Of a stretch of 64,000 bases of DNA, positions 9,278 to 44,671 are shown one piece after another. This DNA comes from a virus: IMG/VR virus record IMGVR_UViG_3300036795_000250, positions 1 through 64,000 of that record; one strand, 5' to 3'. The translations under genes were made by a program, and so were the position numbers. The notes beneath the pieces are model-generated. The model saw only the letters and a program-made list of their open reading frames with translations, did no database searches and was not told the origin of the DNA. Within the stretch, counting starts at the first letter, position 1; the number at the start of each line of letters is the position of its first letter.

Positions 9278-9457
9278 TTGTTGTCTCTTGGGCATTAATA
9301 TCGCTCAGTCGCGTGTCTATTCATTGTTCGTTTCCGTGAACCGTTTCTGGTTATGTCCGCGAGGGTTCTGCTACATTGACCACTCCCGCCGCCCCTCAGC
9401 CGCTGCCTTCCTTGGTGCTACCCCGCTGCGCGGCACGTGTCACTCACGGAGCTAACC

Positions 9458-10027
9458 ATGAGGTTCTTTTACGACCTTGAGTTTTGTGAAGACGGTTGGT
9501 CTATCGAGCCAATCTCTATCGGCATTGTCAGTGAAGCCGGTGATGAGTATTACGCGGTCTTCGATGACGTCCCGATCATCCAGGTCTACGCTAATGACTG
9601 GCTCGTCGAGCACGTCATGCCCTACATCCCGACCACGCACGCGACTCATGCCGTCGTGTGGCCAGCGGTGAAGCTGGATCCGTTGCACCCCGACGTCAAG
9701 AAGCGCACCACCGTTCGCGCCGAGATCGAGGAATTCCTGTTGAACCCGGTGGGTGGCCGGGGCGAAGAGGACATCGAACTGTGGGCGGACTGTGGCGCCT
9801 ACGACCATGTCGCTCTCATGCAACTGTGGGGAACCATGGTCGACAAACCTGCAAAGCTCCCTTATTTTACGCATGATCTCATGCAGGAATGGCATCGGCT
9901 AGGCAAGCCGGAGTTGCCACAGCAAGCCGAGAACGAACATCACGCGCTATACGATGCGCGCCATGACCGAGACGTCTGGCATTTCCTCGATGAGTACGCC
10001 CATCTGAGTTATAGCAATCAGCCCTGA
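9458..10027 (+). CDS. 3'-5' exoribonuclease, Rv2179c-like
   Basis: A 189-residue protein that closely resembles the mycobacterial Rv2179c family (PF16473; DEDD-type 3' exoribonucleases). Seen: FYDLEF with Asp6 and Glu8, ELWADCGAYDHVALMQLWG in the middle, and a late HHALYDARHDRD supplying the last His/Asp. ATG 9458 follows GGAGCTAACC. It stands between the decoration and capsid genes, after a strong terminator and with about 180 bp of its own upstream sequence, so it is a cargo (moron-like) gene. Possible roles are RNA turnover or toxin-like growth control; not shown. Confidence 0.85.
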   Translation: MRFFYDLEFCEDGWSIEPISIGIVSEAGDEYYAVFDDVPIIQVYANDWLVEHVMPYIPTTHATHAVVWPAVKLDPLHPDVKKRTTVRAEIEEFLLNPVGGRGEEDIELWADCGAYDHVALMQLWGTMVDKPAKLPYFTHDLMQEWHRLGKPELPQQAENEHHALYDARHDRDVWHFLDEYAHLSYSNQP

Positions 10028-12341: not shown

Positions 12342-12911
12342 ATGCCCTCCATTGGCGACTACCCGATCCCGACCGTAGCGGCCCTGGCGAACTACTCGGG
12401 CCGAGCAGCGAACTCCTACACTGCATGGGCTGATGAGGCGCTCGCGCAGTCGACGCTGTTGTTCGTTCTGACGGTCGAGCTGGCGGTGCCACCTGACCCG
12501 GTAGCAGATCCAGCCAAGAGCCAGTTGGCTCTCAACGCAATCCTTCAGATGGCTGATGACGTCTATCTGAGGCAGCCGTATGTGCCCTTGCTGGCCAAGC
12601 CGATCCAGTCGGAGACTATCGGTTCATACACGTACAACAAGGGCTTAGGCGCCTTTCGCGAGACGCCGTCATTCCTGAAGGCTCAGATCGGTCACTACAC
12701 GGGTCTGCTGTGGTGGGACCTCGCTGTCCGCGAGTTTGGCGAGACCTTGTATGTCTTGTCCGGCGCAATCTCCGTCTTTGATCGCAGTGCGGATGTAGAG
12801 CTGGATGAGACAGGGCGGCTCGTGTTCTTGGGGCCGGCCGACAAAGACGCGATGCCTTACCCATTTGACGTCAATGCGCCGGAATGGCCTGGGCCCTCGG
12901 TGACAGGGTGA
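12342..12911 (+). CDS. Head-tail adaptor-like protein
   Basis: A 189-residue protein, helical through residues 10-85 with an acidic middle, in the place where siphoviruses encode the adaptor that docks under the portal (HK97 gp6 role). ATG 12342 follows GAGG. The call rests mainly on position and general composition. Its TGA overlaps a GTG that opens a 30-codon frame (12908-13000) which I do not count as a gene. Confidence 0.5.
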   Translation: MPSIGDYPIPTVAALANYSGRAANSYTAWADEALAQSTLLFVLTVELAVPPDPVADPAKSQLALNAILQMADDVYLRQPYVPLLAKPIQSETIGSYTYNKGLGAFRETPSFLKAQIGHYTGLLWWDLAVREFGETLYVLSGAISVFDRSADVELDETGRLVFLGPADKDAMPYPFDVNAPEWPGPSVTG

Positions 12912-13053
12912 GCTTGTGTCTAGCAGCCGTGCACATCTACGACCTGTATATGAACACGTCTAGTGGGAAGGTTGCGACCACCTCGGTCTCTCGATCTTGA
13001 GGCCGATAGTAGTGGGTGAGTCAGGCACTGTTGCTCAAGGGTGGAGCGTGTTC

Positions 13054-13650
13054 ATGGAGACTATGCTCGGGTTTGTGGAGCCTCGCGAGGACCTCCATTG
13101 GTCTTCGACTTCCTTAGTGGAGAAGTTTTCTCCCACTCAGGTGGCCTACGCGACAGCCAAGCTGGGCCACAACCCCTCTCGCGATGAGCTTGTGATGCTG
13201 TGTGGCGCGCCAGAAGAGGGTGTGCATGAGGACCTGACGAGCAACCTGCTCACCACGGCCGGTTTGACCAGGCTTACTAACCTGTTGACTGGCGGCGGGG
13301 CTCAGGCTGCCAGTGCGACGGCGGCTCGATTGGGCGTTGGTAACTCGGCAACGACAGCGCTGGTCGCTGACACCGACTTGAACGCGGCCAGTGGTGCTGG
13401 CAACCGTCAGTTCTACGTCATGGACGCGACGTATCCCACTGTAGCTGCTGGTGTGTTGACAGTAAGGTCGACGTTCGCCACCGGGGACGCCAACTTTGTC
13501 TGGAACGAGTGGGGCATTGACATCGGTACTCCGACGGTAGCCAATGGCACGACTGTGAATGCGTGCTTACTGAACCACAAGATCGCATCGTTGGGCACGA
13601 AGGCCAGTGGCAGCGCGTGGGCTCTGACGGCAACTATCACCCTGAGCTGA
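13054..13650 (+). CDS. Tail fibre-like protein
   Basis: A 198-residue protein; ATG 13054 is preferred because GGTGGAG precedes it. Residues 1-60 are unusual for a fibre; residues 70-198 match a beta-rich fibre module (TAGLTRLTNLLTGGG, ARLGVGNSATTALVADTDL, then FATGDANFVWNEWGIDIG and a final ALTATITLS). First of five fibre-like genes that lie between the head-tail adaptor and the gp10-like gene. Confidence 0.65.
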   Translation: METMLGFVEPREDLHWSSTSLVEKFSPTQVAYATAKLGHNPSRDELVMLCGAPEEGVHEDLTSNLLTTAGLTRLTNLLTGGGAQAASATAARLGVGNSATTALVADTDLNAASGAGNRQFYVMDATYPTVAAGVLTVRSTFATGDANFVWNEWGIDIGTPTVANGTTVNACLLNHKIASLGTKASGSAWALTATITLS

Positions 13651-13678
13651 TCGGGTATCCTGAAATAGAGGTGTGAGG

Positions 13679-15148
13679 GTGAGTTACACACCTAACCCAA
13701 CGTGGGAAGACGGCTCCGCTGGCGGCACGCCATTTGAAGCCGCCCCATTCAACCATATCGAAGCGGGCATCCTCGATGCCTCAAACCGACTCGACTCACT
13801 ATATATCTCAAACTTCAGCGTCGCCGCGCAGTACCTGAAGATCGGCCCCACGCTATATTCATTTTCCGCAGTGGGGGGCGGCAGCAGTTATGCCGTGATC
13901 GACAAGACCTCCACTCCCAACGATGCTAGTGTCTACTTCCGCACTACCGGCATCGGACGTGGCGAGGTCGGGCTCGCTGCTGACGATGACATGCACTTCA
14001 AGGTTGTCACCGGATCGGTAGCTGGTTCGGAAACGTTCGTTGACGGCCTGATTATCAAGAATGCTGCACCGAACACTGGCAAGGTCTGGGCCCCAGTCGG
14101 TTTCGGTGTAGGTACGGTTCCTGCCGTCCCCCTCCATATCGCTGGCAGCAGCACCAGTGGCCGCGTCGCTGCCAAGGTAGAGAACACCAACGTCACCGCG
14201 AGCACCAGTGCCGGCTCCCAACTGGAGTTCAAAGGAAATAGCGCTCCGGTCGACTGGGTACTGGGCACCGACTACGGAGCGAACGGCGGGAACAACTACT
14301 TCCTCCAGGACGGCAACGGCGGCCTGCGCCTCTTTGTCGACGGCAATGGTCGCATCGTCATTGGCGACTACACGGCTGGAGCCGCAACCAATAACTCTCT
14401 GGATGTCGTCGGCTCTATCCGCACCCGAGGTACGAACTACAGCCTCAACCCGCTGAACTTCTGTGGGCACCTGACGGCGCCAGGTGCTCCCACCACCGGC
14501 ACCTACGCTGTTCACGATGTGGTCATGGACAGCATTGGCATCTGGTATATCTGCACGGGGGCCGGGACCCCGGGAACATGGGCTCGGTCCGCAGGCGATC
14601 CCAACGCTACCAAGGCCGCTTCTATGGGCCTCGTGGGCATGACCGAAGACCTGGCCCTGGTGCCCTCCCAGAGCCCGGTGACTGCCGGGCGCCTGTTCGT
14701 TTATCCGTTCGTGGCCGGCTTATCTGCGACTGTGTATTACGCCATTGCTGCCTATGCTAGCGCCACGTCGGGCAATGTGAACACTGGCTCCTTCATTGGT
14801 ATCTACAACGCCGCGGGGACGACGCTGTTGGGAGCAACCGCCGATCTCGCGTCTCAGCTTACTACCGTCGGTGGCGCCCGTGTCATTGGCACGATGGGAA
14901 CGCCATTCGCACTAACGGCCGGGGTCGCGTATCAAGCAGCATTGCTCAACAACTACACCACAACTGGACCTCAATGGATGTGCACCCGGAACTTTGGCAC
15001 GAACTGGGGTAGCGGCACCGGCATCATTCCCCGTGTTCAGGTCAGCTCCGGAACCATGACGACCATGCCCGCCAGCCTGGCGTCGCTTGGATTAGCAGCA
15101 TCTGGGACCAACCAGCTTGTTGCTATCGGCTTTGGTAAAGGGCCGTAA
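13679..15148 (+). CDS. Tail fibre / receptor-binding protein
   Basis: A 489-residue Gly/Ala/Thr-rich protein. GTG 13679 follows AGAGG at seven bases. Residues 1-39 form an anchor segment sharing 34 of 39 positions with the next protein (TPNPTW, then PFNHIEAGILDASNRLD). Residues 60-290 resemble the beta-prism repeats of fibre shafts, and residues 340-489 form a beta-rich end domain, possibly the receptor-binding head. No enzymatic motif seen. Confidence 0.75.
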   Translation: MSYTPNPTWEDGSAGGTPFEAAPFNHIEAGILDASNRLDSLYISNFSVAAQYLKIGPTLYSFSAVGGGSSYAVIDKTSTPNDASVYFRTTGIGRGEVGLAADDDMHFKVVTGSVAGSETFVDGLIIKNAAPNTGKVWAPVGFGVGTVPAVPLHIAGSSTSGRVAAKVENTNVTASTSAGSQLEFKGNSAPVDWVLGTDYGANGGNNYFLQDGNGGLRLFVDGNGRIVIGDYTAGAATNNSLDVVGSIRTRGTNYSLNPLNFCGHLTAPGAPTTGTYAVHDVVMDSIGIWYICTGAGTPGTWARSAGDPNATKAASMGLVGMTEDLALVPSQSPVTAGRLFVYPFVAGLSATVYYAIAAYASATSGNVNTGSFIGIYNAAGTTLLGATADLASQLTTVGGARVIGTMGTPFALTAGVAYQAALLNNYTTTGPQWMCTRNFGTNWGSGTGIIPRVQVSSGTMTTMPASLASLGLAASGTNQLVAIGFGKGP

Positions 15149-15169
15149 CCAGAGTCTAGGGGCGCAGCA

Positions 15170-16543
15170 ATGAGTTACACACCGAATCCAACCTGGGCCG
15201 ACGGGCCCGGGGGCGGCACACCTGCCGAAGCCGTTCCGTTCAACCACATCGAGGCCGGTATCCTGGACGCCTCGAACCGTCTGGACGCTCAAGTCGTACC
15301 GGCACAACTCAACCGGGGTCGAGCCACCGTTGTTGCCACCTACGCCAGCGGCCACGGGTGGACGGCGGCGGGCGGCTGGAGCACTTCGAACGTCAACGAC
15401 ACCTCAGATGGTCGACTGTCCGGGCAGATGCTTACTGGCACGACCCCGGGCAACACAGGTACCTTTCCCACCTTCACGAAGCTCAGTGCTCCAGCTATTA
15501 ACCTGACCGGTCAGTGTTTGCGCGTGTGGGTTAAGGTCGATGCTCCTACCAACGTCGCCGCAATTACCCTTCGCGCAGCTGCCTCGGGAGGCATTGCCGC
15601 CAGCAACTACGTGAGCTGGACGGCGCTGGCGAGCTCGGGCGGCGTCTACCGCACCAACGGCATCATGATCCCGCCCAACACATGGACCGAGCTGTCGTTC
15701 TCCCTAGGTTCGGCCTTCAGCGCGGGCACACCGAATATCACCGCGATCACCGACTATCGGTGGATTGCTCAGGACAACGGGACCGCCTTCACCGTCAACT
15801 TCGGTGGCATCACAGCCTATCCAGCACTGTCTGCTCGCTATCCTAACGGTGTCGCGTGCTTCGGATTCGATGATTGCTACGCAGGCCAGTTCAGTCAGGC
15901 CATGAACCTCTTCAGTAGCTTCGGATACACAGCGACGCTGTTTCCCATCATCGACCAAATCGGCGCGGGAGGTTCCTACACTCTAACGCAGCTAGGTCAG
16001 ATGGCTAACATTGGTTGGGAAATAGCGCCGCACGCATATACCTTAGCTAACCACTCTGGCTGGAACTCTCTTAGCTTGACGCAGGCGTCGGCGGATGTGC
16101 TGGCCTCAAAACAGTGGATCGCTACTCACGGCTTTGGACTCAGTGGTGTATTTGCCTACCCACTCGGCGGGTTCAACGGCGGCTTCTCTGGTGCAGTGGC
16201 ACCACTCTGTCAGGTAGCCAGGACGATTGACTCGACCATGTTGACCGAATCCCTGCCCGTCGGGAATCCGCTCCAGTTGCGCAGCCCTGCGGGAATCGGT
16301 GGGTCGGGCGGCATTGGCGTGACCACCTACACGACTGCCACGACTGGTGTTATTGCCCTGGCCAAAGCTGCCGGGGCCCTAGTCCCCATGACGTTCCACG
16401 ATATATCCAGTGGCACGTCCGGTAACATCAACCAGTGCTCGATTGCCGACCTGACGACACTGGTTACTGCGATCAACACTGCCGGAATGGCCGTTGCGAC
16501 CTACGGTGAGGTGCTTCGCTACGCCATGCTGGGCATCTTCTAA
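15170..16543 (+). CDS. Tail fibre with polysaccharide-deacetylase-like domain
   Basis: A 457-residue protein with three parts: the shared 39-residue anchor; a beta-sandwich of about residues 55-215 resembling carbohydrate-binding domains (LRVWVKVDAP, IPPNTWTELSFSLG); and a NodB-type (CE4, PF01522) domain from about 225 to the end. The first CE4 motif is present as FDDC (Asp234, Asp235). The second is His288-Ala-Tyr-Thr-Leu292, where the family usually has a second His, so catalysis may be reduced or altered. CE4 enzymes remove acetyl groups from wall glycans, which suits host-surface attack. It follows the first fibre gene by 21 bases. Confidence 0.75.
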   Translation: MSYTPNPTWADGPGGGTPAEAVPFNHIEAGILDASNRLDAQVVPAQLNRGRATVVATYASGHGWTAAGGWSTSNVNDTSDGRLSGQMLTGTTPGNTGTFPTFTKLSAPAINLTGQCLRVWVKVDAPTNVAAITLRAAASGGIAASNYVSWTALASSGGVYRTNGIMIPPNTWTELSFSLGSAFSAGTPNITAITDYRWIAQDNGTAFTVNFGGITAYPALSARYPNGVACFGFDDCYAGQFSQAMNLFSSFGYTATLFPIIDQIGAGGSYTLTQLGQMANIGWEIAPHAYTLANHSGWNSLSLTQASADVLASKQWIATHGFGLSGVFAYPLGGFNGGFSGAVAPLCQVARTIDSTMLTESLPVGNPLQLRSPAGIGGSGGIGVTTYTTATTGVIALAKAAGALVPMTFHDISSGTSGNINQCSIADLTTLVTAINTAGMAVATYGEVLRYAMLGIF

Positions 16544-16560
16544 TGGGAAGTGAGTAGGTT

Positions 16561-17100
16561 ATGCCTGCACAATTCTGGGAATCCACACTCAACTCGCCAC
16601 AGCTCGGAGCAGGCGCATCCCTCAACACATCGGCGGCTCTCACCGACATCTCTCCCGCTCCGCAGTTGGTGCTGCCGGGAAACTTCCTCTATGTCGGGTC
16701 GGCACTGCGACTGACCGCGTTCGGCACCTTCGCCACATCAGGCACGACGCCGACGCTGCTCCTTGGGTTCTACTACGGCGGTATTGCTGGCATCGCACTG
16801 GCCGCGACCGCTGCACTGACGGCGCCGAACACTGCGACGGTCAATTGGCCATGGCGCCTGGAAGCAACGGCCACGGTGCGCACGGTCGGCGCCAGCGGGA
16901 CGATCATGGTCCAAGGATACTGCGACATTGCTGCCACATTGACCACGGTGACCCATGTGCCAATTCCTGCGACTGCACTAGCTACTGTCCCCATTGACAC
17001 AACTGCGGCTAAGGCCATCACGGTTGGTGCGCAGTGGGGCACGTCGGCTGCGGCGAACATCGCGTTCTGCCAGCAGTTCATTTGCGAGGCACTCAACTAA
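16561..17100 (+). CDS. Fibre-like beta-rich structural protein
   Basis: A 179-residue protein made almost entirely of short Ala/Thr/Gly-rich strands (ALTDISPAPQLVLPG, LRLTAFGTFATSGTTPTLLL), consistent with a small jelly-roll-like head domain of a fibre. It sits inside the fibre cassette, 17 bases after the deacetylase-like fibre. No family named. Confidence 0.6.
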   Translation: MPAQFWESTLNSPQLGAGASLNTSAALTDISPAPQLVLPGNFLYVGSALRLTAFGTFATSGTTPTLLLGFYYGGIAGIALAATAALTAPNTATVNWPWRLEATATVRTVGASGTIMVQGYCDIAATLTTVTHVPIPATALATVPIDTTAAKAITVGAQWGTSAAANIAFCQQFICEALN

Positions 17101-17118
17101 GTCAGGTAGGAGTGCGTC

Positions 17119-19593
17119 GTGGCGCTCGTAACTAACAACTTCGAGGGCGGCACGGCTACTAGCACCATCACTACAGCTGGTAGCGGTGCCGCTAGCGGCA
17201 CCGCCTTCGACGTCGTCACCATCGGAACTGGCGCGGCCGTTACGTGGGACTCTACGCACTCAGCGCATGGCGCACTATCAGCCAAGATGTCCACCGGCAC
17301 CACGGCGTCCGGGGCCGATGTGGAATGGACGACGTCGGTCGGCGCCCAAGGTACCATTTACGGACGCTTCTATCTCTACGTTACCGCTAACCCGACTGCC
17401 AGCCAGCGCGTGATGACGACGGCTACATCTGGCGGCGCGACGCTGTGCAGCGGAATTTACCTGATGACTGACGGCACACTGCTTATGACAGATGCGGCCA
17501 CATCCACGATACTACAGACGACTAACTCGGTTAACCTCAACGGGTGGACGCGTGTAGAGTTTAAGGTGATCGGGAGTGCTACTGTAGGTCACATTGAGTT
17601 GGGTATATACAAGACAATGGACTCCAGTACAGCCACGGAGAGTTTGTCTTCGTCCAGCATCCTGAATACTGGCGGGACCATAGCTCTCTATTCAATAGGT
17701 AGTGGTGCGGATGTCAAAGCCAACCAGGTCGCAGTGTGGTTTGATGACGTCGGCTTCAGCACCACAGGGTATCTTGGTTCTACCTTTGTTGGTGGGAGCA
17801 CTTTTCCAGGAGCCTGGCCAGGGACCTATGCTCCACAATTCGCAGCAGCCCATCTTAACGTGCTGCTCCCGAACTTCTGGACCCACGACAGAACAGGCCC
17901 TTTTGTTGGCATTACCAGCTCAGACGCAGGGTCAAGTGTAGAAGGCACGAGCCAGGCCGTGAGCCTAAGCTCTTCGGATACAGGCTCAGGGTTTGAGTCA
18001 GGTCCCGGCCTGGTCTATCTGGGAGCCACCACCTTCCCTGGTTCTGCGCTGTACCTCGGTAGTGGCATACAGACGACACCAACATACGTAGCCGCCTCCT
18101 ACCCCGACGTTGGTTCGGGCACCGAGATCTCCAGCATTGCCGCGACGACCTCCGCTCCGGACACTGGTTCTGGAGCCGAGACCGGCAGTGTCGGCATCAC
18201 CGTCACCGACACAGGTGCCGGTACTGAGCTGGCCGCTGTCGCAGCTACTGCTACCGCCGCCGATACTGGCGGGAGCTCGGACCTCGGTGCCGTTGAGGTA
18301 CTGAGCGCCGACGCGGGTACGGGTGCCGATGTCGCTGTATTGGCGCTGAGCTCGGCAGATGGTGGCCTCAGCACTGACATGAGCGTTCTTGCCGCTACCA
18401 CCGCTCAATCAGACATCGCAGCTGGGCTCGATGGACAGTCTGTCTCTACGCTCCTGTCGGCAAATGACACGGGCAGCGCCGCCGAAGGGCAGTCCACTAA
18501 CGTCACTGTGACAGCTGACGACCTTGGCTCGGCTGTTGACGTCGCGGGCGTGGCCTCTCTTGAGGTCCGAACGAGCGACGCCGTCCAGAGCAGCGAAGCA
18601 ACAATTGTTTCGATCGTCGATGGGGACGTGGGCCAGTACATCGACCTAGCTGCTGCATCCTTGGCGCCTCCGGGGCCGACCAGCTTCGAGCTCGAATCCC
18701 CGACCGTCGTGCAGGTGTTGCGCCAGGTGACCACGCGAGCCAACGGGAGCATGTCCATCGCGTGGGTGCCGATCTCCCAGCTCGTGGGCGGCGAACTGTA
18801 CGGGCTGACGCCCCGGCGACCCTACGGAGACATCCTCGACGGAGGTCAGCTGGCGGTACGGCTTGATCTGCACTTCGTGCGCCCCGGCACCGTCGCCCAG
18901 CCGCCGCTGGCCGCTGGCTTCATGCCCGATCGAACGGGTGTGATGTTCGCCGACGTTTCAGCCGCCGGGATCCTGAAGGCGGGCGATCGAGTCCAGTGCG
19001 TGTCTGGACCTATCGACGGCATCTTCGAGATCCGAGTCATCCCGGATACACCTGCTGACTACAGCAAAGCTCACCACCTCGAAGTCGAAGTGATTGAGGT
19101 GAGCCAGCATAACGCGGACGGTTCCTATTTCAGTCCGGACATAGACTCTCTCTCGTTTCACAGCTTCATGCGCAACCTCTATGACCTCCGGGTCGCGGTT
19201 CTGCGTCGGGCCACGGTGTCAGAGTCCGGCGGGTCGGCGCGCGAGGTCTGGAACCAGATTGCCGACATCCCGGACGTCATGTGGGACACACCGGGTGAGA
19301 TGTGGTGTCGTCTGTCGCTGCGGCTGGTGCGCCGACACAAGGACGCGCTGCCTCCTCTGGTGGCCGGGCGTGCACCCGATCGATTCGGTGTGCTGTACTG
19401 CGACGTCACGCCCTTCCTGCGAGCAGGTGATCGCGTTGTCTGTCTCGAAGGGCCGATCGCGGGTACCTTTGAGCTACGAGTCGCACCTGACCTGAGTCCC
19501 AACCTGACGACGATTCATCACCTCGAAGTCCAGGTCATCGAAGTAGCCCAGTCGTTGGCCGGTATCTTTCCCCGGCCCGAAGTTGGCGCGTAA
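17119..19593 (+). CDS. Chimeric fibre / head-closure-like protein
   Basis: An 824-residue protein from GTG 17119. Residues 1-225 form a concanavalin-like sandwich (WTRVEFKVIGSATVGHIELG). Residues about 268-515 hold a dozen degenerate 16-20-residue repeats of the form Asp-x-Gly-x-x-x-Asp/Glu. Residues about 565-680 and 690-815 are two similar copies of a module with APDR/MPDR, AGDRV, GPI-G-FE-RV and HHLEV-VIEV, which I relate to head-closure (stopper) proteins by position and by general similarity. It lies where the stopper gene is expected, so it may carry that role while also displaying a fibre. No separate stopper gene is seen. Confidence 0.6.
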   Translation: MALVTNNFEGGTATSTITTAGSGAASGTAFDVVTIGTGAAVTWDSTHSAHGALSAKMSTGTTASGADVEWTTSVGAQGTIYGRFYLYVTANPTASQRVMTTATSGGATLCSGIYLMTDGTLLMTDAATSTILQTTNSVNLNGWTRVEFKVIGSATVGHIELGIYKTMDSSTATESLSSSSILNTGGTIALYSIGSGADVKANQVAVWFDDVGFSTTGYLGSTFVGGSTFPGAWPGTYAPQFAAAHLNVLLPNFWTHDRTGPFVGITSSDAGSSVEGTSQAVSLSSSDTGSGFESGPGLVYLGATTFPGSALYLGSGIQTTPTYVAASYPDVGSGTEISSIAATTSAPDTGSGAETGSVGITVTDTGAGTELAAVAATATAADTGGSSDLGAVEVLSADAGTGADVAVLALSSADGGLSTDMSVLAATTAQSDIAAGLDGQSVSTLLSANDTGSAAEGQSTNVTVTADDLGSAVDVAGVASLEVRTSDAVQSSEATIVSIVDGDVGQYIDLAAASLAPPGPTSFELESPTVVQVLRQVTTRANGSMSIAWVPISQLVGGELYGLTPRRPYGDILDGGQLAVRLDLHFVRPGTVAQPPLAAGFMPDRTGVMFADVSAAGILKAGDRVQCVSGPIDGIFEIRVIPDTPADYSKAHHLEVEVIEVSQHNADGSYFSPDIDSLSFHSFMRNLYDLRVAVLRRATVSESGGSAREVWNQIADIPDVMWDTPGEMWCRLSLRLVRRHKDALPPLVAGRAPDRFGVLYCDVTPFLRAGDRVVCLEGPIAGTFELRVAPDLSPNLTTIHHLEVQVIEVAQSLAGIFPRPEVGA

Positions 19594-19631
19594 AAACTGA
19601 TGCATGAGCGCGGTCGTGGATAGGGGCATAG

Positions 19632-20042
19632 GTGTCTATTCGTATAGAAGTCGATATGCACGAGGTGCTGGACGAGCTCGACCGACTCAAGGACATGCCT
19701 AACCTCCCGATGATTACCGGATTGGAAGGCGTCCTCGCTACTACCTTCACCCAAACTCAGCTAACGACGCCCGTAGATACTGGCTCATTGCGTGGCTCGG
19801 GCAAGATTTCCAGCGAAGTAACAGACGATCAATGGGATGGCGCCATTACTTACGGCGGTGCATCGCCAGGGTTTCCCCATGATCCGGTCAACTACGCGTG
19901 GTTTGTCCTCGGAGGACACATTATTGTGGCGTGGGGTCGCCGCATCCATGAAGGTAAGCAATACCAAGAAGCAGATAACTACATGCTTCCGTGGGCCTTG
20001 GGCGAAGAGGACTTTACGGAATCAATTCTTAGGGAACTGTGA
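19632..20042 (+). CDS. HK97 gp10-like neck protein
   Basis: A 136-residue protein from GTG 19632. It has the family layout: an N-terminal helix, TTPVDTGSLRGSGK near residues 48-62, and YGGASPG then VNYAWFV near 75-95. Such proteins join the head-tail interface. Order with the next gene (tail terminator) and with the tail tube is as in HK97-like phages. Confidence 0.75.
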   Translation: MSIRIEVDMHEVLDELDRLKDMPNLPMITGLEGVLATTFTQTQLTTPVDTGSLRGSGKISSEVTDDQWDGAITYGGASPGFPHDPVNYAWFVLGGHIIVAWGRRIHEGKQYQEADNYMLPWALGEEDFTESILREL

Positions 20043-20053
20043 GAGGACGCATG

Positions 20054-20542
20054 ATGAGCTCTCCAGTAATGACTGACGACGTAGTGCAGGGCGTGTGTAA
20101 GTGGCTGGCCACATTTGATGACGTCACCTCGCTCCTCGGGTCTGCTTCGGACGGATCTCCTTACATCTTTCAGGACACTCTGCACGCAGTGATGGAAGGC
20201 ACGCAACATGCTGCCATTGTCCTGAGCACCATGGGTGGCTGGGCTGCGCCCAACAACTACAACACGGCTGAGTTCCCCCGACTCCTGCTCGATCTCTGGG
20301 TTGACCCCATCCGAGACTCCAGCAACAACTACATCGAACTCGCCGAGACGCGGCGCCGCGCGCGGCAGATTTACATCGCGCTGAACTGGCACCTCCACCG
20401 GCCGCAGGTCGGCGATCCCGTCTACTGGGGAACCGTGCGCACGATTGGGTGCACCCGGCTGGGAGAGGTCGTCATCGCGTCGGTCCCCGACGGTGACGGG
20501 CTCATCAGGGCTCAGGTCTTTTACGGTGTGATCCTCGGATAG
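20054..20542 (+). CDS. Tail terminator protein
   Basis: A 162-residue protein. Of two adjacent ATGs the second (20054) has the better spacing from AGAGGA. The mixture of a helical start, LSTMGGWAAPN, FPRLLLDLWVDP and a repeated strand pattern at the end fits phage tail-terminator proteins, which cap the tube and join it to the neck. Position supports the call. Confidence 0.65.
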   Translation: MSSPVMTDDVVQGVCKWLATFDDVTSLLGSASDGSPYIFQDTLHAVMEGTQHAAIVLSTMGGWAAPNNYNTAEFPRLLLDLWVDPIRDSSNNYIELAETRRRARQIYIALNWHLHRPQVGDPVYWGTVRTIGCTRLGEVVIASVPDGDGLIRAQVFYGVILG

Positions 20543-20553
20543 GAGGTACGGCG

Positions 20554-20733
20554 TTGCCAGCTCCGCCGATATTCTTTCAGAACCTGACGCTCATGCTGGA
20601 AAGAGCGACCAGCCCAGCTGAGTGCGACGACTTGCTGGACTTGTGGTGGGATGCGCGCACACGAGCCTCCCAATGGGACGCTGATCAGTGGGGCTTAGAG
20701 AGCACTGACTCCGATGAGAACGGGACAACATAG
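20554..20733 (+). CDS. Small acidic hypothetical protein, TTG start
   Basis: A 59-residue frame from TTG 20554, preceded by AGGAGG at an 8-base distance, filling the gap between the tail terminator and a glycosyltransferase. It is Asp/Trp-rich (ECDDLLDLWWDARTRASQW) and ends ESTDSDENGTT. No family recognised. It ends four bases before the next start, which supports a real coupled gene. Confidence 0.6.
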   Translation: MPAPPIFFQNLTLMLERATSPAECDDLLDLWWDARTRASQWDADQWGLESTDSDENGTT

Positions 20734-20737
20734 CTCA

Positions 20738-21793
20738 ATGCGTATTTTGGTGAAGACGTCCCTGAGCCCTTACTCCGGTTACGGCCAGGACGGGCTGGGA
20801 GTGGTACGTGCGCTGACCAACGCTGGCCACGATGTCTACGTCCAGCCAGAGCATGTCGATGCGCCGCTGCCGTTCGAGGTGGCCCGGTTGCTGACCAAGC
20901 GCCTGGTGGCGCCGTTCGATGTGCTAGTCCATCACACTGACCCAGGCCAGCTCGGGCTGACACCGGAGGCCCGCAGTGCGGCCAGAGTCACCGTCGGCTG
21001 GACCATGTGGGAGTCCACCTCGCTGGTTCCGCAACTGAAGAACGTGCGCCTATTGCCCAAGAAGCTCAAGAGCTACGATCTCATCTTGGGGTATGACGCG
21101 GTTAGTACAGAAGCACTGCGCCCCTACGTCCGCACGTCGAAGTTGGCTGTCCTCCAGGGTGGATTCTGGCCGGACGAGTGGAAGGCCGCCGAGCGCAGTT
21201 GGTTTTCCGACCGGTTCGGTTTCGCGATGGTCGGTCAGCTCCACGAGCGCAAAGACCCGTTCGTCGCTATTCAAGCATTCCAAGAGCTCAAGACCGAGTT
21301 AGGCAGAGAGTTCGACGGCGCCGAACTGCATCTGAAGACTAATCTGCCTGGACTCCATTCTGCGATGGAGACCTGTATTCCGAAGCTTCGGGTGCATTAC
21401 GATGTGTGGTCGCAGGACATCCTCTATCAGTTCTACGCCAAACAGCATGTGCTGCTCGCCCCGTCGCGCGGTGAAGGCAAGAACTTGCCGGCCCTGGAGT
21501 TCCAGTCGACCGGAGGCGCCGTCATCGCCACCAACTGGGGAGGCATGACGGGGTGGCTGGACCGATCGTTCGCCTACCCTCTTCGGTACTCGCTGGCTCC
21601 GGTGGACCCTCAGCACCCCGAGTGCCTCCAGGCGAGAGCTGACAAGGATCACCTCAAAGAGTTGATGCTGCATGTCTTCCGCAACAGGGCCGAGGTGCGC
21701 GATAAGGCTGCCTTGGCTGCAAAGGTGATACCGCAGTCGATGAGCTGGGACTCAGTGATCAGTCGGCTTATGGACAACATCAATGCGATGTAG
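20738..21793 (+). CDS. GT4-type glycosyltransferase (GT-B fold)
   Basis: A 351-residue retaining-type glycosyltransferase. Residues 3-25 form the first strand and Gly-rich loop (ILVKTSLSPYSGYGQDGLG). VGQLHERKDPF near 168 is the domain-linker motif, and SRGEGKNLPALEF near 243-255 is the E-x7-E motif that binds the sugar nucleotide. ATG 20738 is chosen over 20714. It stands inside the tail module between terminator and tube genes, so a virion protein is a plausible acceptor (inference); host-surface or small-molecule targets are alternatives. Confidence 0.85.
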   Translation: MRILVKTSLSPYSGYGQDGLGVVRALTNAGHDVYVQPEHVDAPLPFEVARLLTKRLVAPFDVLVHHTDPGQLGLTPEARSAARVTVGWTMWESTSLVPQLKNVRLLPKKLKSYDLILGYDAVSTEALRPYVRTSKLAVLQGGFWPDEWKAAERSWFSDRFGFAMVGQLHERKDPFVAIQAFQELKTELGREFDGAELHLKTNLPGLHSAMETCIPKLRVHYDVWSQDILYQFYAKQHVLLAPSRGEGKNLPALEFQSTGGAVIATNWGGMTGWLDRSFAYPLRYSLAPVDPQHPECLQARADKDHLKELMLHVFRNRAEVRDKAALAAKVIPQSMSWDSVISRLMDNINAM

Positions 21794-22724: not shown

Positions 22725-23348
22725 ATGGCTGAATCCGAACTCGATGCGCTGGCCCCTGTTGCGGAGACGACCAAACTGTCCACGGGGACCGCTGTCGTCT
22801 ATGAGCCCTTGAAGACCCGGCAGTTTTTCGGCTTGCTTCGGATCGTGACGCGAGGCGCGGGCGCAGCGTTGGGCGACCCCACCTTGTTCTCGCTGAACTC
22901 GGACACGACCGCCCAGGAGTGGGGCCAGAAACTGCTGGCCCTGATTTTGGTCGCGGTACCCAACGCCGAGAACGAAACCGTCGCTTTTATCCAGTCAATG
23001 GTGAAACCAGACGGCCTGGTGGACAAGCCTGCGCGGTCGTTGACCAAGGCTGACACCGCGCACAACGCCGCACTATGGGCCACCCTCAGCGAGGAGCTGT
23101 TCAACCCGGAGCTGGAAGACACGCTGACCATCCTGGAGGACGTCGTCAAGCGCGAGTCGTCAGATCTGGTCGCCCTGGGAAAACGCCTAGCCACGATGAT
23201 GAAAGTGGCTCAAAAAACGGGACAGGTGCCGGAGACCGCGCAGCCGGCCCTCGAATCCCTGATATCCCCGGATCTGACCTCCTCGGAGGATTCAGCCGCG
23301 CCTTCGACATCATCGCCAGCGAGTACGGATGGACCGACGACGTCGTGA
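22725..23348 (+). CDS. Tail assembly chaperone (G-like)
   Basis: A 207-residue protein. Residues 1-150 are the helical chaperone domain; residues 170-207 are Ser/Pro/Thr-rich. ATG 22725 follows CTGGAG. It occupies the place of lambda gpG and HK97 gp13, before the tape measure. A slippery heptamer within the frame at 23177-23183 lets a share of ribosomes make a longer G-T fusion. Confidence 0.8.
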   Translation: MAESELDALAPVAETTKLSTGTAVVYEPLKTRQFFGLLRIVTRGAGAALGDPTLFSLNSDTTAQEWGQKLLALILVAVPNAENETVAFIQSMVKPDGLVDKPARSLTKADTAHNAALWATLSEELFNPELEDTLTILEDVVKRESSDLVALGKRLATMMKVAQKTGQVPETAQPALESLISPDLTSSEDSAAPSTSSPASTDGPTTS

Positions 23349-23617
23349 TGGAACTGACCATCAAGCGACTGCGTCAGTGCGTCGCCGCGATCTCTGAGCG
23401 GAAGTGGCTGGAGAGCCGAGCTCAGTGGCAGAACCTGACTTGGCAGACCAGGATGATCTGCCGATTCGTCGCCGCCACCGTGCCCATTCAGCCGGGAACC
23501 CGATCGTCCTTGTTGGAGGCAGCAGAAGACATCGGCGAGGAGCCGAATCAACCGGAGCAGTCGAAAGAGCCAGAGGTTGGCTCGTATGAACGGTTTATGG
23601 CCTCGTTCGGCAGGTAA
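22725..23617 (+). CDS. Tail assembly chaperone fusion (GT-like), -1 frameshift product
   Basis: Ribosomes slipping back one base at 23177-23183 (G GGA AAA, in the zero frame as GGA AAA) continue in the overlapping frame from 23183 to 23617. The product would be 153 residues of the G part followed by 144 residues of the T part, 297 in total. The T part has DLLGGFSRAFDIIASEYGW and ends ERFMASFGR. Such a pair binds the tape measure during tail assembly. The T frame has no good start of its own, which supports frameshifting. Confidence 0.8.
23177..23183 (+). promoter_or_regulatory. -1 programmed frameshift site GGGAAAA
   Basis: The heptamer G GGA AAA is in the correct register for the upstream frame: GGA occupies 23178-23180 and AAA 23181-23183. 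Slipping by -1 re-pairs GGG and AAA. The -1 frame is open from 23075 to 23617. The same register and place as in lambda (GGGAAAG) and many actinophages. Confidence 0.75.
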
Positions 23618-23654: not shown

Positions 23655-26600
23655 ATGCCTGACGCTGAGAAGCTCATCGTCTATCGGGCAGTAGCCGACT
23701 TCGCCGACTTGATCGCACAGGCCAAGCTTGCTCAAGAGGAACTGAAGAAGCTAGAGGATCAGCAGAACAAGACGCTTAGTGGTGGCGGGGTCGGTTCGAG
23801 CGCGGCGGCAGCCGCTAGCGCGAAGACTCTCGCTGACAGCGTCCAGCAGGTCAGTGCTCGTACGGCGGAACACGCGGCGGCCGTCCAAAGTGACAAGGTA
23901 GCCCAGGACGCGAATACCGCATCCCGCGCTGCCGCGACGACCGCCGCTGCCACCGAGACGAAAGCCGTCCAAGGCTCCTCTGCCGCCAAAGACGTCGAGA
24001 CCAAGTCCATCACCGGGGCGACCGCAGCTCGTGCGGCGGAGACAGTGTCGCGTAAGAGCGCCGCCGATGCCGCCGCCACCGAGACCAAAGCCGTCCAAGG
24101 CTCCTCTACCGCCAAAGACGTCGAGACCAAGTCCACACAGAGCCAAACGGCAGCGCTGACCGGTAGCACCAAGGCCATCGGAGACAACGTCCAGGCGAAC
24201 GTTGCCAATGTATCCGCTGTGGCAGCGCATGCCGATGCGCTAGACCGTGAGAACGCCCGGCTAGAACGCAATAGGCAGGCTATCGAGAAGTCTGGTATCT
24301 CTGTCAAGCAATACAACCAGACACTCCGGAACCTGTCAGGCAACCTGGCCAAGCTGTCTGAAACGAGCACCTCCGCCGGGGTCATGGGCATCCCCAGTGC
24401 AGGCGGTGGTGCTCCCGGGGCCGGTAGCACTGGCAGTGCAACACTTCCCGTCTCTGAGATGGATAAGTGGCTCGTCGAGCAGAATAGGTTGCGCAACACC
24501 GGGCAACTCCGCGACGGCGGGGTAGGTGGGGTTGCTGTTCCGAGTGACCTCAAGCCGGGGTCCGCGCCGGAGGGGGACCTGACCAAGATCTCCGGGTCCT
24601 TCAGCGGCTCAGATCTCCTCGCCAACGTGACTACGACCAGCAAAGCCAATCAAGACGCATTCGACAAAACCTTCAAGACTATCGAGGGGGACATCGAAAG
24701 CTTCTCGGGCTCGTTCAATGGCGCCGACCTGCTGACCCATGTCACGACGATCAGCAAGGCCAACCAAGAGGCGTTCGATAAGACCTTCAAGACCATCGAA
24801 GGGGACATCGAGGGCTTCTCGGGCTCGTTCAGCAGCACCGATCTCCTCAGCAAGGCCACTACCAACAGCAAAGCAGAGCTGGATTCATTCGAGAAGTTCT
24901 ATAAGGACACACAAGCCAGCGTCAAGAAGTACGCCGACGATCTAGGCAACGACACGCTTGACAGGTTCGTGCCTGATCTCAGTGGAGGCGGCGGTGGAGG
25001 CGGAGGCAGTGGAGGCAGTGGAGGCAGTAGCGGAAGCCGAGGCGGTGGAGGAGGCGGCAGCAACTCCGCGCTGGGCAGTCTTTTGCCAGGGCCGACCGCC
25101 GCAGCTCCCGTCGTCGGTGCCGCTGCCGCAGCCGGAGCTGGTGCGCTTGGTGGCGTAGCGCTGTCCACTATCCCGGCTTTGTTCCTGGCGATCGGGGTGG
25201 CGGCAGAGAAGAGCAACACCCAAGTCTCGTCGGCCTTCGACCAAATGCTGCTCGCGGCTAAGCAGACAACGACTGCCGGCTTTGAGCCTATGATCCCGGC
25301 GCTAGTCAGTGTCGCGAAGCAAGCCACGTCGACACTCGGCGGGCTAGAGCCTGTATTTAACCAAGCCGCTCATGCGATGACGCCGTTGATCGAGGCTGTC
25401 GGTGCCGGGTTCCTGCAAGCCGCAAAGCAGGGCATCGGCGCTGCTGTACCTATCCTGCAAAGCCTCGGTCCACTGGCAACAGCAATCGGTGGCGGGTTTG
25501 TGCAGGTAGAGCAAGCCATCATGGGGTTCTTTAAGAACATCGACGTCGGCGCGGCTGCCGATGGACTCAAGGCTCTGGGAGGTCTGCTTCAAGCGCTAGC
25601 TCCGGATGTTGGCACGCTGATTTCCGCGCTAGCCCCGCTAGGTAGCGTGTTTCTGAATATCACCAGCTTGCTACTCAACGGCCTCGAACCGGCGCTGAAG
25701 ACGATCGCGGCGCTGGTAAACATACCGGGCATCCCCTACCTGGTTGCCGCGTTTGGTGCCCTGGAGGTTGCGTCCAAGCTGCTCTCCGGTTCATGGATCA
25801 ACTTCAGCTCGATCATGAAGACTTTCAAGAGCGATGCGGATAGCTCGACGAGCACCATGTCCACTCTGGGACAGCAGTTCGGCGTCACGGCGGGCGCAGC
25901 AAAAGACGCCGCCGACAAGACACTTCAGCATGCAGCGAGTCTCGCCCAACTCCAAAAGAACGCTGATGCCAGCGCAGTGTCGGTGGCTAACCTGGCAGTG
26001 GATACGGCAAGGAACGCCGACGCTAGCCAAGGCTCCGCCAAGTATGTGTCAGATCTGGACAACGCGCTATTGTCCCAACGGCAAGCCACGGACAAGGCAA
26101 CCCAGTCGGCTAAGGACTATGAAAGCGCGGCCAAGGCCGCAAGCGAAGGCTCGAACACCTTCAGCAGCGCACTGAAGGGTATCGCTGGTGGCTTGGCTAT
26201 TGGCGTGGCGCTTACTGCTGTGGACATCGTTGTACAGCACTTTGCAGACAATGCCGCGCGAGCCGCTCAGTACACAGCGGACATCCAGACGGCGGCTAGC
26301 GCCACCGCATCCGTACTAGGGACGTATGGAAGTGCCGTCGATGCTCAGTCGATCGCGGCCGAAAAGGCAGCAATCGCTGGGCAGGACTGGGTCAAGGTCC
26401 TGACTGATGAAGGTTTGTCGCTGGATACCGTCGCCAAGGCGTCACTGAACAGCCTGCCAGACTTGCTGGAAGTGATAAAAACTAGTGAGGAAGCAGCCGC
26501 TGCTGCCGAAAAGAAGCTGGACTTCCAGGGCGCTACCGCAGATTTCGCCTCTATCCTCACGATCGAGAAGCAATATACACAAGCGCAAAAAGATGCGGCC

Positions 26601-29486
26601 CAGGCGACGCAGGACGCGGCGACCGCACTTCTGAATGTGGGCCCTGACCTCCAAAAGCAGGCCGAACTGCTCGAAGCTGGCACGATACGTACCGACGCCC
26701 AAACTGCCGCCACCGCAGCGTTGGCACAAGGGATGACTGCTGGCGAGGCGACGGTCCAGGCTTACTCAGCAGGCGTCCTCGCCATGGGCAGTGCTTACTT
26801 GGCTGCCATTAAGCCTTCCGAGGACTTGGCCACTGCTCAGCAAACCTTGCAGTCCTCGATGAACGCCATTGTTGACACCGAGAGGACGAACGCGACAGCC
26901 GCCGCATCGGCGTATCAAGCATGGCAGTCGGCCATCAACGGTGTGACCACGGCGCAGAACTCTCTCGTCACCGCTCAACAAGGTGTCGCGGCAGCGCAGC
27001 ATGCGCAGACGGAAGCTGCCTACACCAGCCAGCAGGCGCAGGTCAGCTACACGCAGTCGGTGACAGCCGAGGCTCTGGCGGAGACGAATCTGGGCCTGGC
27101 GCAGAAGGCGGCGGCGCAGAACCTGATCGATCTGGGCCTCCAACTCAAAGATCAGGCCGACTCGCAGGCATCAGCTGAGCTGAAGCTGTATAACGCGCAG
27201 GTCGCTGTTAACAACGCGGGCCTGGCTCATACGACGCTGAGCCTGAACGATCTTAATGTTGCCGGTAAGGTCAATACCTCGAACGAGTCCCAATACCAGT
27301 TGCTATTGAACTTGTCGGAAGCGCAGAACGCGCTGAATGACACCCAGAACACTGGCGCACAGCTGACTGCGACGAACAACCTAGCGGTGTCGCAAGGCGT
27401 TGAGGGTGCTCCCAGCGTGGTCGCAGCTCATTTGAGTGTGACGGACGCTCAGGCTCAGGTGGCGGCGTCGGCCAAGGCAATGACTGACGCGCAATATGCC
27501 CAGCAGCAAGCTGTCGACGCAACAAAGCAGGCGGTGTTTAATCTCAGCCAGCAACAGATTGCATTGAAGACAGCTCAGAACAACGTCACGACCGCCCAGA
27601 ACACTAATGCTCAGGCTCAACTGCCGTTGCAGGCGAAGATCGGTGGCACCTCCGACGCCAGTATAGCGTTGAACACCCAAGTAACCAACATGTTCAACGC
27701 CTATGCTGCGCTGCATTCGCAGGACCCTAACCTGATTGCGGACTTTGAACAGCAGTACCAGACTATTACCGGCAGCAAAGGTCCTGTGGCAGGTCTGGAT
27801 GCGTGGCTCCAGAGGCTGACCGGTAACGGTGGCTTGAACGGAATCGTCGCCAACTACAGCGTGGTCGGCACGCCGAGCCTGAACCTGAACAACATCATCA
27901 CCCAAGCACAAGCACTGGGTATCAGCCCCTCCAGCCTCGGATTCAGCTCCGCCCAGATTCAAGGAGCACAGATCTCGGCCGGGAATCCGACCGCGACGGC
28001 GGGCGGGACCGTCAACGCGCAGGTGCCTGGCGGTGCGACCGGCGGCCAGATCGGCGGGGTGAGCCCGTCCAACACAGCGGACAACATTCCCTTGTGGGTC
28101 ACCGCTCGTGAGTGGATTCACCCAGTGGACGCGGTGGACTACTACGGCCCCGAGGTCATGGCCGCTGTCCAGAAGCGCCAGATCCCCAAAGAGCTCTTCA
28201 CATTCGCCAAAGCTGCGGCCCAGGGTTGGGATGGAGCAGCTATCACCCGGGCACTTCAGGCCCCCGGCATGGCGGCTGGAGGCTCGGTCGGGACCGTGCA
28301 GTCGTGGCTCCAGAACGTCGCGGGCTCCAAGCCCTATGTCTGGGGCGGAGTAGGACCCGACTCCTATGACTGCTCGGGTCTAGTGGGAGAGGTCTATAAC
28401 CAACTGCGAGGACTGCCGTCAGACCACCGAGTGTTCACGACCTCCAACGAAGAACAGTTCTTCACCCCCGGCAAGGGCACCTTCACCGTCGGCATCAACC
28501 CTGGCGTGCACACAGCGGGGAACCTGGGTGGTCTCGCGTTCGAGGCAGCCAGCCCCACCAGCGGCATCCACATCGGCGCCAGTGCTCAAAGCGTCGACAA
28601 CTTCCCGGTCGTCATGTACCTGCCGCTGGAAGGCAGCACCTTCACTCCGGGTGGCTCCGGCGTGGGCTCGGGCGTGGGATCCGGGCCGTCAGTGGCCGAT
28701 GCGCGGAAGTTGTGGGGCGCCAACTTCAAAGAGGCAGCCGCTCAGGTCATGGGTCAGACCGTCATCGACACCATGAAGTCGATGGGCGCGTCGAACATCC
28801 CTCGTGGTCTCGCTCCGAGCAATGCCAACGCCCAGATCGACTTCGGCGCGTTTGTGCCTTCTGTGGGTGGAGGCGCTGCCGGCCCGATCCCTACTGGGCA
28901 ACACCGGGCCATCATCGACGCGGCCTTGGCGGCTGACAGTGTCCCGGCGAATCAGTGGCCTGCCTGGGAAGCCGGTATGAACACGCTGATTCAGCGTGAA
29001 TCCAGCTGGAACCCCAACGCTATCAATCTGACTGACGCTAACGCCCGAGCAGGCCACCCGAGCGAGGGGCTTGCTCAGATGATCGCTGGGACCTTCGAGG
29101 CGAACCGTAACAGGTCCCTACCAGACAATGTTCTAGATCCTGAAGCCAATGTGGCGGCGGCCATCAATTACATCGACACGCGATACGGCGGTATCGGCAA
29201 CGTCCAGCAGGCCAACCCGAATCTTCCACCGAAGGGTTATGCACTCGGTGGCCAAGTTTTCGATCCCAGCATGCTCTACGCCGGACTCAGCACGAGCATG
29301 CCGAAGTTTGCTGCGGGCGGCCAGGCCGTGATGCCTCCGGTCGCTGCGTCGAATCCGCTGACGGTAGGCAAGAGTGGCTTGACCATCGACGGCAATATCA
29401 CCGTGAACAACCCGGTGAGAGAGCCATCGGCGAAGAGCTTGCGCCGCAAGCTGGAGCTGTTCGCGACTCTGGGTGAAAGAGGGTGA
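23655..29486 (+). CDS. Tape measure protein with NlpC/P60 and lysozyme-like domains
   Basis: A 1943-residue tail-length protein. Residues 20-440 are helical with repeated segments: a KAVQGSS block near 100 and 143, and three 38-residue copies near 313, 351 and 389 (SGSFNGADLL). A Gly/Ser linker at 440-470 precedes a hydrophobic region (480-520). A long Ala/Gln-rich helical rod follows. Near 1550-1660 is an NlpC/P60 domain (YVWGGVGPDSYDCSGLVG with the catalytic Cys about 1572 and His about 1638). Near 1750-1850 is a transglycosylase-like domain (LIQRESSWNPNAIN, GLAQMIAGTF). Both would open the cell wall during DNA entry. At roughly 1.5 angstroms per residue the tail should be near 290 nm. Confidence 0.95.
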   Translation: MPDAEKLIVYRAVADFADLIAQAKLAQEELKKLEDQQNKTLSGGGVGSSAAAAASAKTLADSVQQVSARTAEHAAAVQSDKVAQDANTASRAAATTAAATETKAVQGSSAAKDVETKSITGATAARAAETVSRKSAADAAATETKAVQGSSTAKDVETKSTQSQTAALTGSTKAIGDNVQANVANVSAVAAHADALDRENARLERNRQAIEKSGISVKQYNQTLRNLSGNLAKLSETSTSAGVMGIPSAGGGAPGAGSTGSATLPVSEMDKWLVEQNRLRNTGQLRDGGVGGVAVPSDLKPGSAPEGDLTKISGSFSGSDLLANVTTTSKANQDAFDKTFKTIEGDIESFSGSFNGADLLTHVTTISKANQEAFDKTFKTIEGDIEGFSGSFSSTDLLSKATTNSKAELDSFEKFYKDTQASVKKYADDLGNDTLDRFVPDLSGGGGGGGGSGGSGGSSGSRGGGGGGSNSALGSLLPGPTAAAPVVGAAAAAGAGALGGVALSTIPALFLAIGVAAEKSNTQVSSAFDQMLLAAKQTTTAGFEPMIPALVSVAKQATSTLGGLEPVFNQAAHAMTPLIEAVGAGFLQAAKQGIGAAVPILQSLGPLATAIGGGFVQVEQAIMGFFKNIDVGAAADGLKALGGLLQALAPDVGTLISALAPLGSVFLNITSLLLNGLEPALKTIAALVNIPGIPYLVAAFGALEVASKLLSGSWINFSSIMKTFKSDADSSTSTMSTLGQQFGVTAGAAKDAADKTLQHAASLAQLQKNADASAVSVANLAVDTARNADASQGSAKYVSDLDNALLSQRQATDKATQSAKDYESAAKAASEGSNTFSSALKGIAGGLAIGVALTAVDIVVQHFADNAARAAQYTADIQTAASATASVLGTYGSAVDAQSIAAEKAAIAGQDWVKVLTDEGLSLDTVAKASLNSLPDLLEVIKTSEEAAAAAEKKLDFQGATADFASILTIEKQYTQAQKDAAQATQDAATALLNVGPDLQKQAELLEAGTIRTDAQTAATAALAQGMTAGEATVQAYSAGVLAMGSAYLAAIKPSEDLATAQQTLQSSMNAIVDTERTNATAAASAYQAWQSAINGVTTAQNSLVTAQQGVAAAQHAQTEAAYTSQQAQVSYTQSVTAEALAETNLGLAQKAAAQNLIDLGLQLKDQADSQASAELKLYNAQVAVNNAGLAHTTLSLNDLNVAGKVNTSNESQYQLLLNLSEAQNALNDTQNTGAQLTATNNLAVSQGVEGAPSVVAAHLSVTDAQAQVAASAKAMTDAQYAQQQAVDATKQAVFNLSQQQIALKTAQNNVTTAQNTNAQAQLPLQAKIGGTSDASIALNTQVTNMFNAYAALHSQDPNLIADFEQQYQTITGSKGPVAGLDAWLQRLTGNGGLNGIVANYSVVGTPSLNLNNIITQAQALGISPSSLGFSSAQIQGAQISAGNPTATAGGTVNAQVPGGATGGQIGGVSPSNTADNIPLWVTAREWIHPVDAVDYYGPEVMAAVQKRQIPKELFTFAKAAAQGWDGAAITRALQAPGMAAGGSVGTVQSWLQNVAGSKPYVWGGVGPDSYDCSGLVGEVYNQLRGLPSDHRVFTTSNEEQFFTPGKGTFTVGINPGVHTAGNLGGLAFEAASPTSGIHIGASAQSVDNFPVVMYLPLEGSTFTPGGSGVGSGVGSGPSVADARKLWGANFKEAAAQVMGQTVIDTMKSMGASNIPRGLAPSNANAQIDFGAFVPSVGGGAAGPIPTGQHRAIIDAALAADSVPANQWPAWEAGMNTLIQRESSWNPNAINLTDANARAGHPSEGLAQMIAGTFEANRNRSLPDNVLDPEANVAAAINYIDTRYGGIGNVQQANPNLPPKGYALGGQVFDPSMLYAGLSTSMPKFAAGGQAVMPPVAASNPLTVGKSGLTIDGNITVNNPVREPSAKSLRRKLELFATLGERG

Positions 29487-29490
29487 GCCT

Positions 29491-30384: not shown

Positions 30385-30396
30385 AGGGAGGTAGTG

Positions 30397-30975: not shown

Positions 30976-30990
30976 GAGAGGTGAACCACG

Positions 30991-31974: not shown

Positions 31975-32027
31975 TATGCGGTCGAGGCTAATACGTACGT
32001 TAGCCAATCACTAGGGAGTGGATTAAC

Positions 32028-32510: not shown

Positions 32511-32536
32511 GTTGGTGTTGCTAAGGAGATCACCTC

Positions 32537-44614: not shown

Positions 44615-44671
44615 AGCTTTACTATCGGTGGCGAGTCAGCGATCGTTGTGCAACCAGGACCGGCTGTGTCG

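Follow-up and report, generated by a model that had tools for sequence, protein, structure and literature searches.

Five fibre-like genes interrupt the head-tail joining genes of an uncultured long-tailed phage, raising the questions of which part of the virion they build and what has become of the stopper in this block. The DNA analysed (the window) comprises bases 1-64000 of the 129,193-base virus record IMGVR_UViG_3300036795_000250. The virus is a large long-tailed phage with a tape measure gene at 23655-29486 and a compact tail-tip block at 29473-35512. Among named phages, Microbacterium phage Magritte (133 kb, OR553905) is the nearest, with 62% identity in the major capsid protein, and 80 capsid relatives were drawn from IMG/VR for comparison; a search for genome contigs that could assign a host found none. 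Magritte and dozens of IMG/VR relatives have orthologues of the block in unchanged order, and the observation therefore goes beyond chance. An earlier note on this DNA placed the five genes at 13054-19593, between the adaptor and gp10-like genes; the open reading frames bear these coordinates out, and the ATG start at 13054, which has a good Shine-Dalgarno sequence (-6.9 kcal), is preferable to the TTG at 12997 that opens the longest frame. The genes of the block, and the parts of the last cassette gene, are as follows.

12342-12911 (+), head-tail adaptor, orthologue of Magritte gp24, with PHROG family matches
13054 (12997)-13650 (+), fibre/adhesin module protein of the PHROG 23653 family (phrog_23653, E 4e-32)
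13673-15148 (+), fibre protein with an N-terminal anchor motif, matching phrog_5711 and phrog_23059
15170-16543 (+), anchor, beta-sandwich-like middle and predicted polysaccharide deacetylase (CE4) domain (Pfam PF01522, E 2e-7)
16561-17100 (+), small, beta-rich-looking protein without detectable relative
17119-19593 (+), fibre-stopper fusion of 824 aa, a single open frame with a GTG start
17119-18690 (+), N-terminal fibre part of the fusion (aa 1-524), with a jelly-roll-like segment and repeats
18703-19110 (+), stopper domain 1 of the fusion (aa 529-664), from the stopper profile (E 6e-39) and alignment
19177-19557 (+), stopper domain 2 of the fusion (aa 687-813), from the stopper profile (E 3e-46), AlphaFold2 and Foldseek
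19632-20042 (+), gp10-like tail completion/Neck1 protein (phrog_5, 'tail completion or Neck1'), orthologue of Magritte gp29
20039-20542 (+), tail terminator, orthologue of the Magritte gp30 tail terminator, family phrog_35330

The adaptor and gp10 assignments rest on family-wide profile matches and on synteny with Magritte; in the adaptor family, 16 of 30 relatives match the head-tail adaptor family phrog_541 and 9 match phrog_4931. No meaningful match was obtained when the adaptor, gp10 and stopper profiles were compared with PDB sequences.

The stopper was located through Magritte gp28, which lies between the fibre-like gp27 and gp29 and matches the window twice, both times within the 824-aa frame at 17119-19593. 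A stopper profile built from the relatives identified two complete stopper domains in tandem at the C-terminus of this product, preceded by about 520 aa of fibre-like sequence. In an alignment of 31 members, the invariant columns are retained in both copies, and each copy lacks a different half of the RPGKD motif. When the AlphaFold2 model of domain 2 (pLDDT 87.7) was compared with the PDB using Foldseek, the Douge connector was the top match, followed by Bxb1, Mycofy1, RcGTA and the SPP1 gp6/15/16 complex, and connector proteins occupied nearly all of ranks 1-13 with probabilities of ~1.0. The TM-scores were modest (about 0.5), so the model predicts the right family for domain 2 and its structural detail is approximate. 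A stopper fold was found for domain 2 by AlphaFold2/Foldseek and for domain 1 by its 41% identity, and the adaptor, stopper, gp10 and terminator genes follow one another as in Magritte and the relatives, with the cassette inserted. The subunit is not a single domain: it has two domains per chain and a 528-aa N-terminal extension, and we therefore class the product as a variant of the stopper, a fibre-stopper fusion. The fifth gene, described earlier simply as a fibre, does have a fibre-like N-terminus, but alignment with the stand-alone stoppers of relatives reveals it to be this fusion. Similarly, the cassette does interrupt the joining block, as had been proposed, but no component is missing, the stopper being contained in the last cassette gene. 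That the stopper is absent or has been replaced by fibres is ruled out, because its profile finds the two fused domains.

The two stopper copies share about 41-47% identity with one another and about 41-52% with close relatives, and both form long branches in the stopper tree, about equally distant from the relatives. The duplication is therefore old and not an assembly duplicate. As an arbiter of which copy is ancestral, the same tree gave no answer, both copies being long-branched. When the 129-kb record was scanned, no stopper was detected beyond these two copies; a normal separate stopper elsewhere, which the earlier note held would count against its reading, is not found. The GTG at 17119 is preceded by a Shine-Dalgarno sequence (-6.8 kcal), and the only sensibly placed internal ATG, in frame at aa 684, has none (+1.2 kcal), which argues against a free stopper made from an internal translation start. 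Since there is no other stopper and the internal start lacks a ribosome-binding site, the fibre should be present on all stopper protein produced from this contig.

No profile matched the first 524 aa of the fusion. Residues 22-221, a segment that we judged by eye to be jelly-roll-like, match a 661-aa protein of relative L092 that bears a PhoD phosphatase (E 3e-18), and residues 312-468 match a 522-aa repeat protein of relative L064 (E 1.5e-8). Imperfect DTGSGxE repeats of ~18 aa extend over aa ~262-510; repeats of this type also occur near baseplate genes in L162 and L163. The 991-aa tail-tip protein of the window (32537-35512), which has weak similarity to Sipho_Gp37, starts with a long repeat region resembling that of the fusion, and one type of spacer seems to serve both tail ends, in the fusion and in this protein.

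Neck fibres, one type of which is covalently built into the stopper ring, are the best reading of this cassette, and we consider it probable, the virion location being predicted from the gene arrangement. The cassette would encode appendages, directed at the host surface, that attach to the neck or close to it. The 824-aa product would enter the head-closing ring through its two C-terminal stopper domains, presumably without proteolysis (although proteolytic release of the stopper may occur), and its jelly-roll/repeat N-terminal part would point away from the particle as a neck fibre held by a covalent tether. The products of the neighbouring genes would add further fibre and enzyme parts, including a polysaccharide deacetylase, and would probably dock at the neck or the adjoining head or upper tail through a shared N-terminal anchor; at the cell surface, they would contribute binding and deacetylase activity, and the appendages might bind or trim the polysaccharides there. 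The suggestion of a neck appendage in the earlier note is thus strengthened for the last gene, whose fibre is covalently joined to the stopper, but the position of the other four genes does not place their products, for which a neck location is conjectural.

Stoppers close the channel after packaging, and the adaptor and terminator rings bind them. In Douge, the stopper forms a hexamer that sits as a ring between the adaptor and the terminator (PMC13033339), and with the stoppers of SPP1 (gp16), Douge (gp10) and phage 812 (gp97) the window shares the fold and the gene neighbourhood. Whereas the Douge and 812 stoppers are single domains that form hexamers, the chain in the window carries two domains; the 812 stopper has an extra external beta-sandwich, but neither a long fibre nor a duplication. 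Because the termini of the 812 stopper contact external decoration proteins, where neck whiskers probably attach (PMC12886913), an N-terminal fibre on a stopper is geometrically reasonable. We tentatively propose that the tandem stopper could assemble as three chains into a pseudo-hexameric ring of six barrels, so that a six-fold neck valve would become a three-fold 'neck hub' with three covalently tethered fibres; alternatively, six chains may make two layers. Trimeric tail hubs have duplicated tube domains, which offers a parallel to the three-chain option, and this option would suit trimeric fibres. If the neck hub is true, contact with the host at the neck could be coupled to whether the genome is retained or released.

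The fusion of a fibre to a tandem stopper would be a new form of the known neck fibres or whiskers. Neck fibres are usually assigned by microscopy, and their functions are mostly obscure; here, one gene encodes both a fibre and the genome-retaining ring protein, making the location predictable from sequence. The tandem stopper also provides a concrete case in which to ask how a six-fold ring takes fibres of other symmetry, and whether contact between neck and cell surface influences DNA release. The collars of T4 and XM1 are precedents for neck appendages (PMC10491603). In the lactococcal 936 phages, the nps gene lies upstream of mtp and its product was located at the neck by immunogold (PMC4759559). 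The gene for this neck passage structure resembles the cassette in being an optional fibre/whisker gene among those that join head and tail in a long-tailed phage; unlike the cassette, nps is one separate gene, and the text consulted does not describe it as fused to a connector protein (PMC4759559). The A-1(L) neck fibres (PMC10966104), GP4 fiber I (to whose Pfam family, PF23140, Magritte gp25 belongs) and T4 whiskers are fibres anchored to head-tail connector rings. However, the A-1(L) fibres are attached to a 15-fold neck ring via a separate protein, gp82, and are not fused to a stopper, and their genes lie far from the other structural genes, unlike the window cassette. In A-1(L), no host binding was observed for the distal module of the neck fibre (PMC10966104), and neck fibres therefore need not be receptor-binding.

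The second and third cassette genes, 13673 and 15170, have a common 5' segment (116 nt with 78% DNA identity, the first ~39 codons) that encodes the anchor motif PTWxDGxxGGTPxxAxxFNHIEAGI. Both anchors are matched by 'head fiber' and 'minor tail' profiles; that of 13673 matches the head fiber family phrog_5711 (E 3.5e-5), a later segment of the same product matches the tail fibre family phrog_23059, and no whole-length relative of the product was found among named phages. Among all fetched loci, the motif occurs only in 13673, 15170, Gordonia phage Neville gp22 and Forza gp90. Other named phages also have it: cluster E mycobacteriophages (in Lilac, gp21, which follows the major tail gene) and a Pseudomonas phage, in a lipase gene located between the capsid and tail-sheath genes. 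Elsewhere, anchor-bearing genes lie between the major capsid and tape-measure genes under the annotations head fibre, decoration, lipase or minor tail, so that capsid, neck or upper-tail attachment are all possible for 13673 and 15170.

The 15170 product scored 31.4 bits against PF01522 (curated cut-off 23.1), and its profile matches PDB deacetylases. Residues D234, D235, H288, H295, H410 and D411 are invariant in four homologues, with a His-His spacing that we take to be unlike that of textbook CE4 enzymes. With its active-site residues conserved, this product is predicted to deacetylate polysaccharides. Gordonia phages encode homologues of it that carry the annotation minor tail protein or glucosaminyl deacetylase, and in the uncultured phage L152 a homologue (74% identical) lies ahead of the major-tail-like and tape-measure genes. 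The galactose-binding-like and deacetylase-like domains paired in the turret heads of the archaeal virus HFTV1, which sit on capsid hexons (PMC12494034), form a layout like that of 15170, also at the virion surface, and the anchor matches both a head-fibre profile and cluster E mycobacteriophage genes annotated as head fiber or capsid decoration. The 13673 and 15170 products could accordingly be HFTV1-like head fibres or turrets on the capsid, with only the fusion at the neck, an arrangement compatible with the fibre-stopper fusion itself. We consider it less likely, though a serious alternative: the head-fibre names are annotation only, Lilac gp21 and Neville gp22 directly follow the major tail gene, and searches of PDB sequences with 15170 and its profile listed deacetylases and no viral turret, no sequence match between the turret head and 15170 being found.

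The 13054-13650 product, modelled with 50 relatives, gave an AlphaFold2 pLDDT of 93.6. Its viral Foldseek matches in BFVD include named tail fibre and tail collar fibre proteins, and in the PDB its best match was the HFTV1 tail (9h4p, E 1.5e-3), followed weakly by GP4 fiber I (8jou). Homology of this family to the Gp80-type gp25/gp26 of Magritte was rejected, the profile comparison being negative. The 16561 product had no match in Pfam, PHROGs, NCBIfam or named phages; a likeness to a small L064 protein, noticed by eye, was not confirmed by sequence search.

In Magritte, gp23-gp30 have the same gene order as the window, with adaptor gp24, fibre-like gp25-gp27 and stopper gp28. Unlike in the window, the Magritte stopper is a separate single-domain gene, its enzyme is a GDPD-type phosphodiesterase rather than a deacetylase, and gp25-gp27 are not sequence homologues of the cassette. 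At least one insertion over 900 bp between the capsid and terminator genes was present in 29 of the 43 contigs that carry the complete marker set from capsid to terminator. Enlargement of the adaptor-stopper slot was seen in 16/58, and of the GT-MTP and MTP-TAC slots in 0/26. The capsid-to-terminator block is a recurrent insertion site in this clade, although the inserts are not always fibres: several relatives have small unrelated genes in the adaptor-stopper slot. The gene immediately preceding the stopper is a fibre or enzyme gene in Magritte (gp27, GDPD), in L151 (tail-fibre family) and in the L033 group (F5/8 type C), and homologous fibre parts occupy other neck slots in L089, L092 and L064. 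The cassette genes, too, lie in the head-tail joining/major tail region and vary among relatives, as neck-fibre genes do. Given that fibre genes already adjoin the stopper in relatives, the fusion would most simply have arisen by loss of the boundary between the two, together with duplication of the stopper.

The 13054 family is found in the neck block in L089 and L064, and adjoins baseplate or tail-tip genes in Bacillus phage SP-15, Listeria phage LIS04 and relative G010; for this reason, the virion location of the other four products cannot be read from gene position alone. Similar modules also follow baseplate genes in L162 and L163. It might be argued from these cases that the cassette, apart from its stopper part, encodes tail-tip fibres or baseplate adhesins that have merely been relocated, the N-terminus of the fusion being cleaved or inert. 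This is improbable, because the phage has its own tail-tip set (29473-35512), a fibre is fused in frame to the sole stopper and fibre genes recur in the joining block across the clade. Fibre parts do move between tail tip and neck inside one virus group, and a search for receptor-binding proteins limited to tail-tip genes can therefore miss some.

The neck-fibre reading centres on a fusion that is known from a single metagenomic contig. We compared 112 stopper ORFs from 58 distinct contigs, including the window, and only that of the window is fused or doubled; the long apparent N-terminal extensions of a few other stopper frames are frames that overlap the adaptor gene. Two further scans found no relative of the whole fusion or of the tandem alone, and no paper on fused stoppers was found in the literature searched. 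An assembly or sequencing artefact that merged separate fibre and stopper genes would fit a single contig without a close relative, all other distinct stoppers being single and unfused, but is very improbable, because domains about 41-47% identical are not a duplicated read, two stop/start junctions would need to vanish with the frame still open, and no separate stopper copy is left in the record.

Several further features of the window and its relatives were observed. The C-terminal segment of the Magritte gp24 adaptor (L001:22686-23486) matches the tail-fibre family phrog_5073 and, weakly and below the cut-off, CBM_5_12, which suggests that a surface-binding module may have been added to a further neck ring protein, gp24. 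The surface-polymer enzymes in the neck-block fibres of related phages differ, being a PhoD phosphatase, a GDPD phosphodiesterase and a polysaccharide deacetylase, encoded as follows.

L092:2667-4652, PhoD
L001:24323-26788, GDPD
window 15170-16543, predicted deacetylase

A glycosyltransferase gene (20714-21793) lies between the tail terminator and major tail protein genes and keeps this place in most relatives (98 matching loci), hinting at glycosylated virion proteins. The tail assembly chaperone gene (22725-23348) overlaps a second frame (23075-23617) in the layout of a programmed-frameshift G/GT pair. Between the decoration-like and major capsid genes, 9437-10027 encodes a 196-aa protein that resembles, by eye, a 3'-5' exoribonuclease or DnaQ-like nuclease. 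Homologues of the Magritte portal and terminase genes (gp13/gp12) lie inverted downstream of the tail genes (42935-46516, minus strand), whereas in Magritte they lie upstream of the tail genes on the same strand; other left-end genes are also inverted in the window (47-63 kb).
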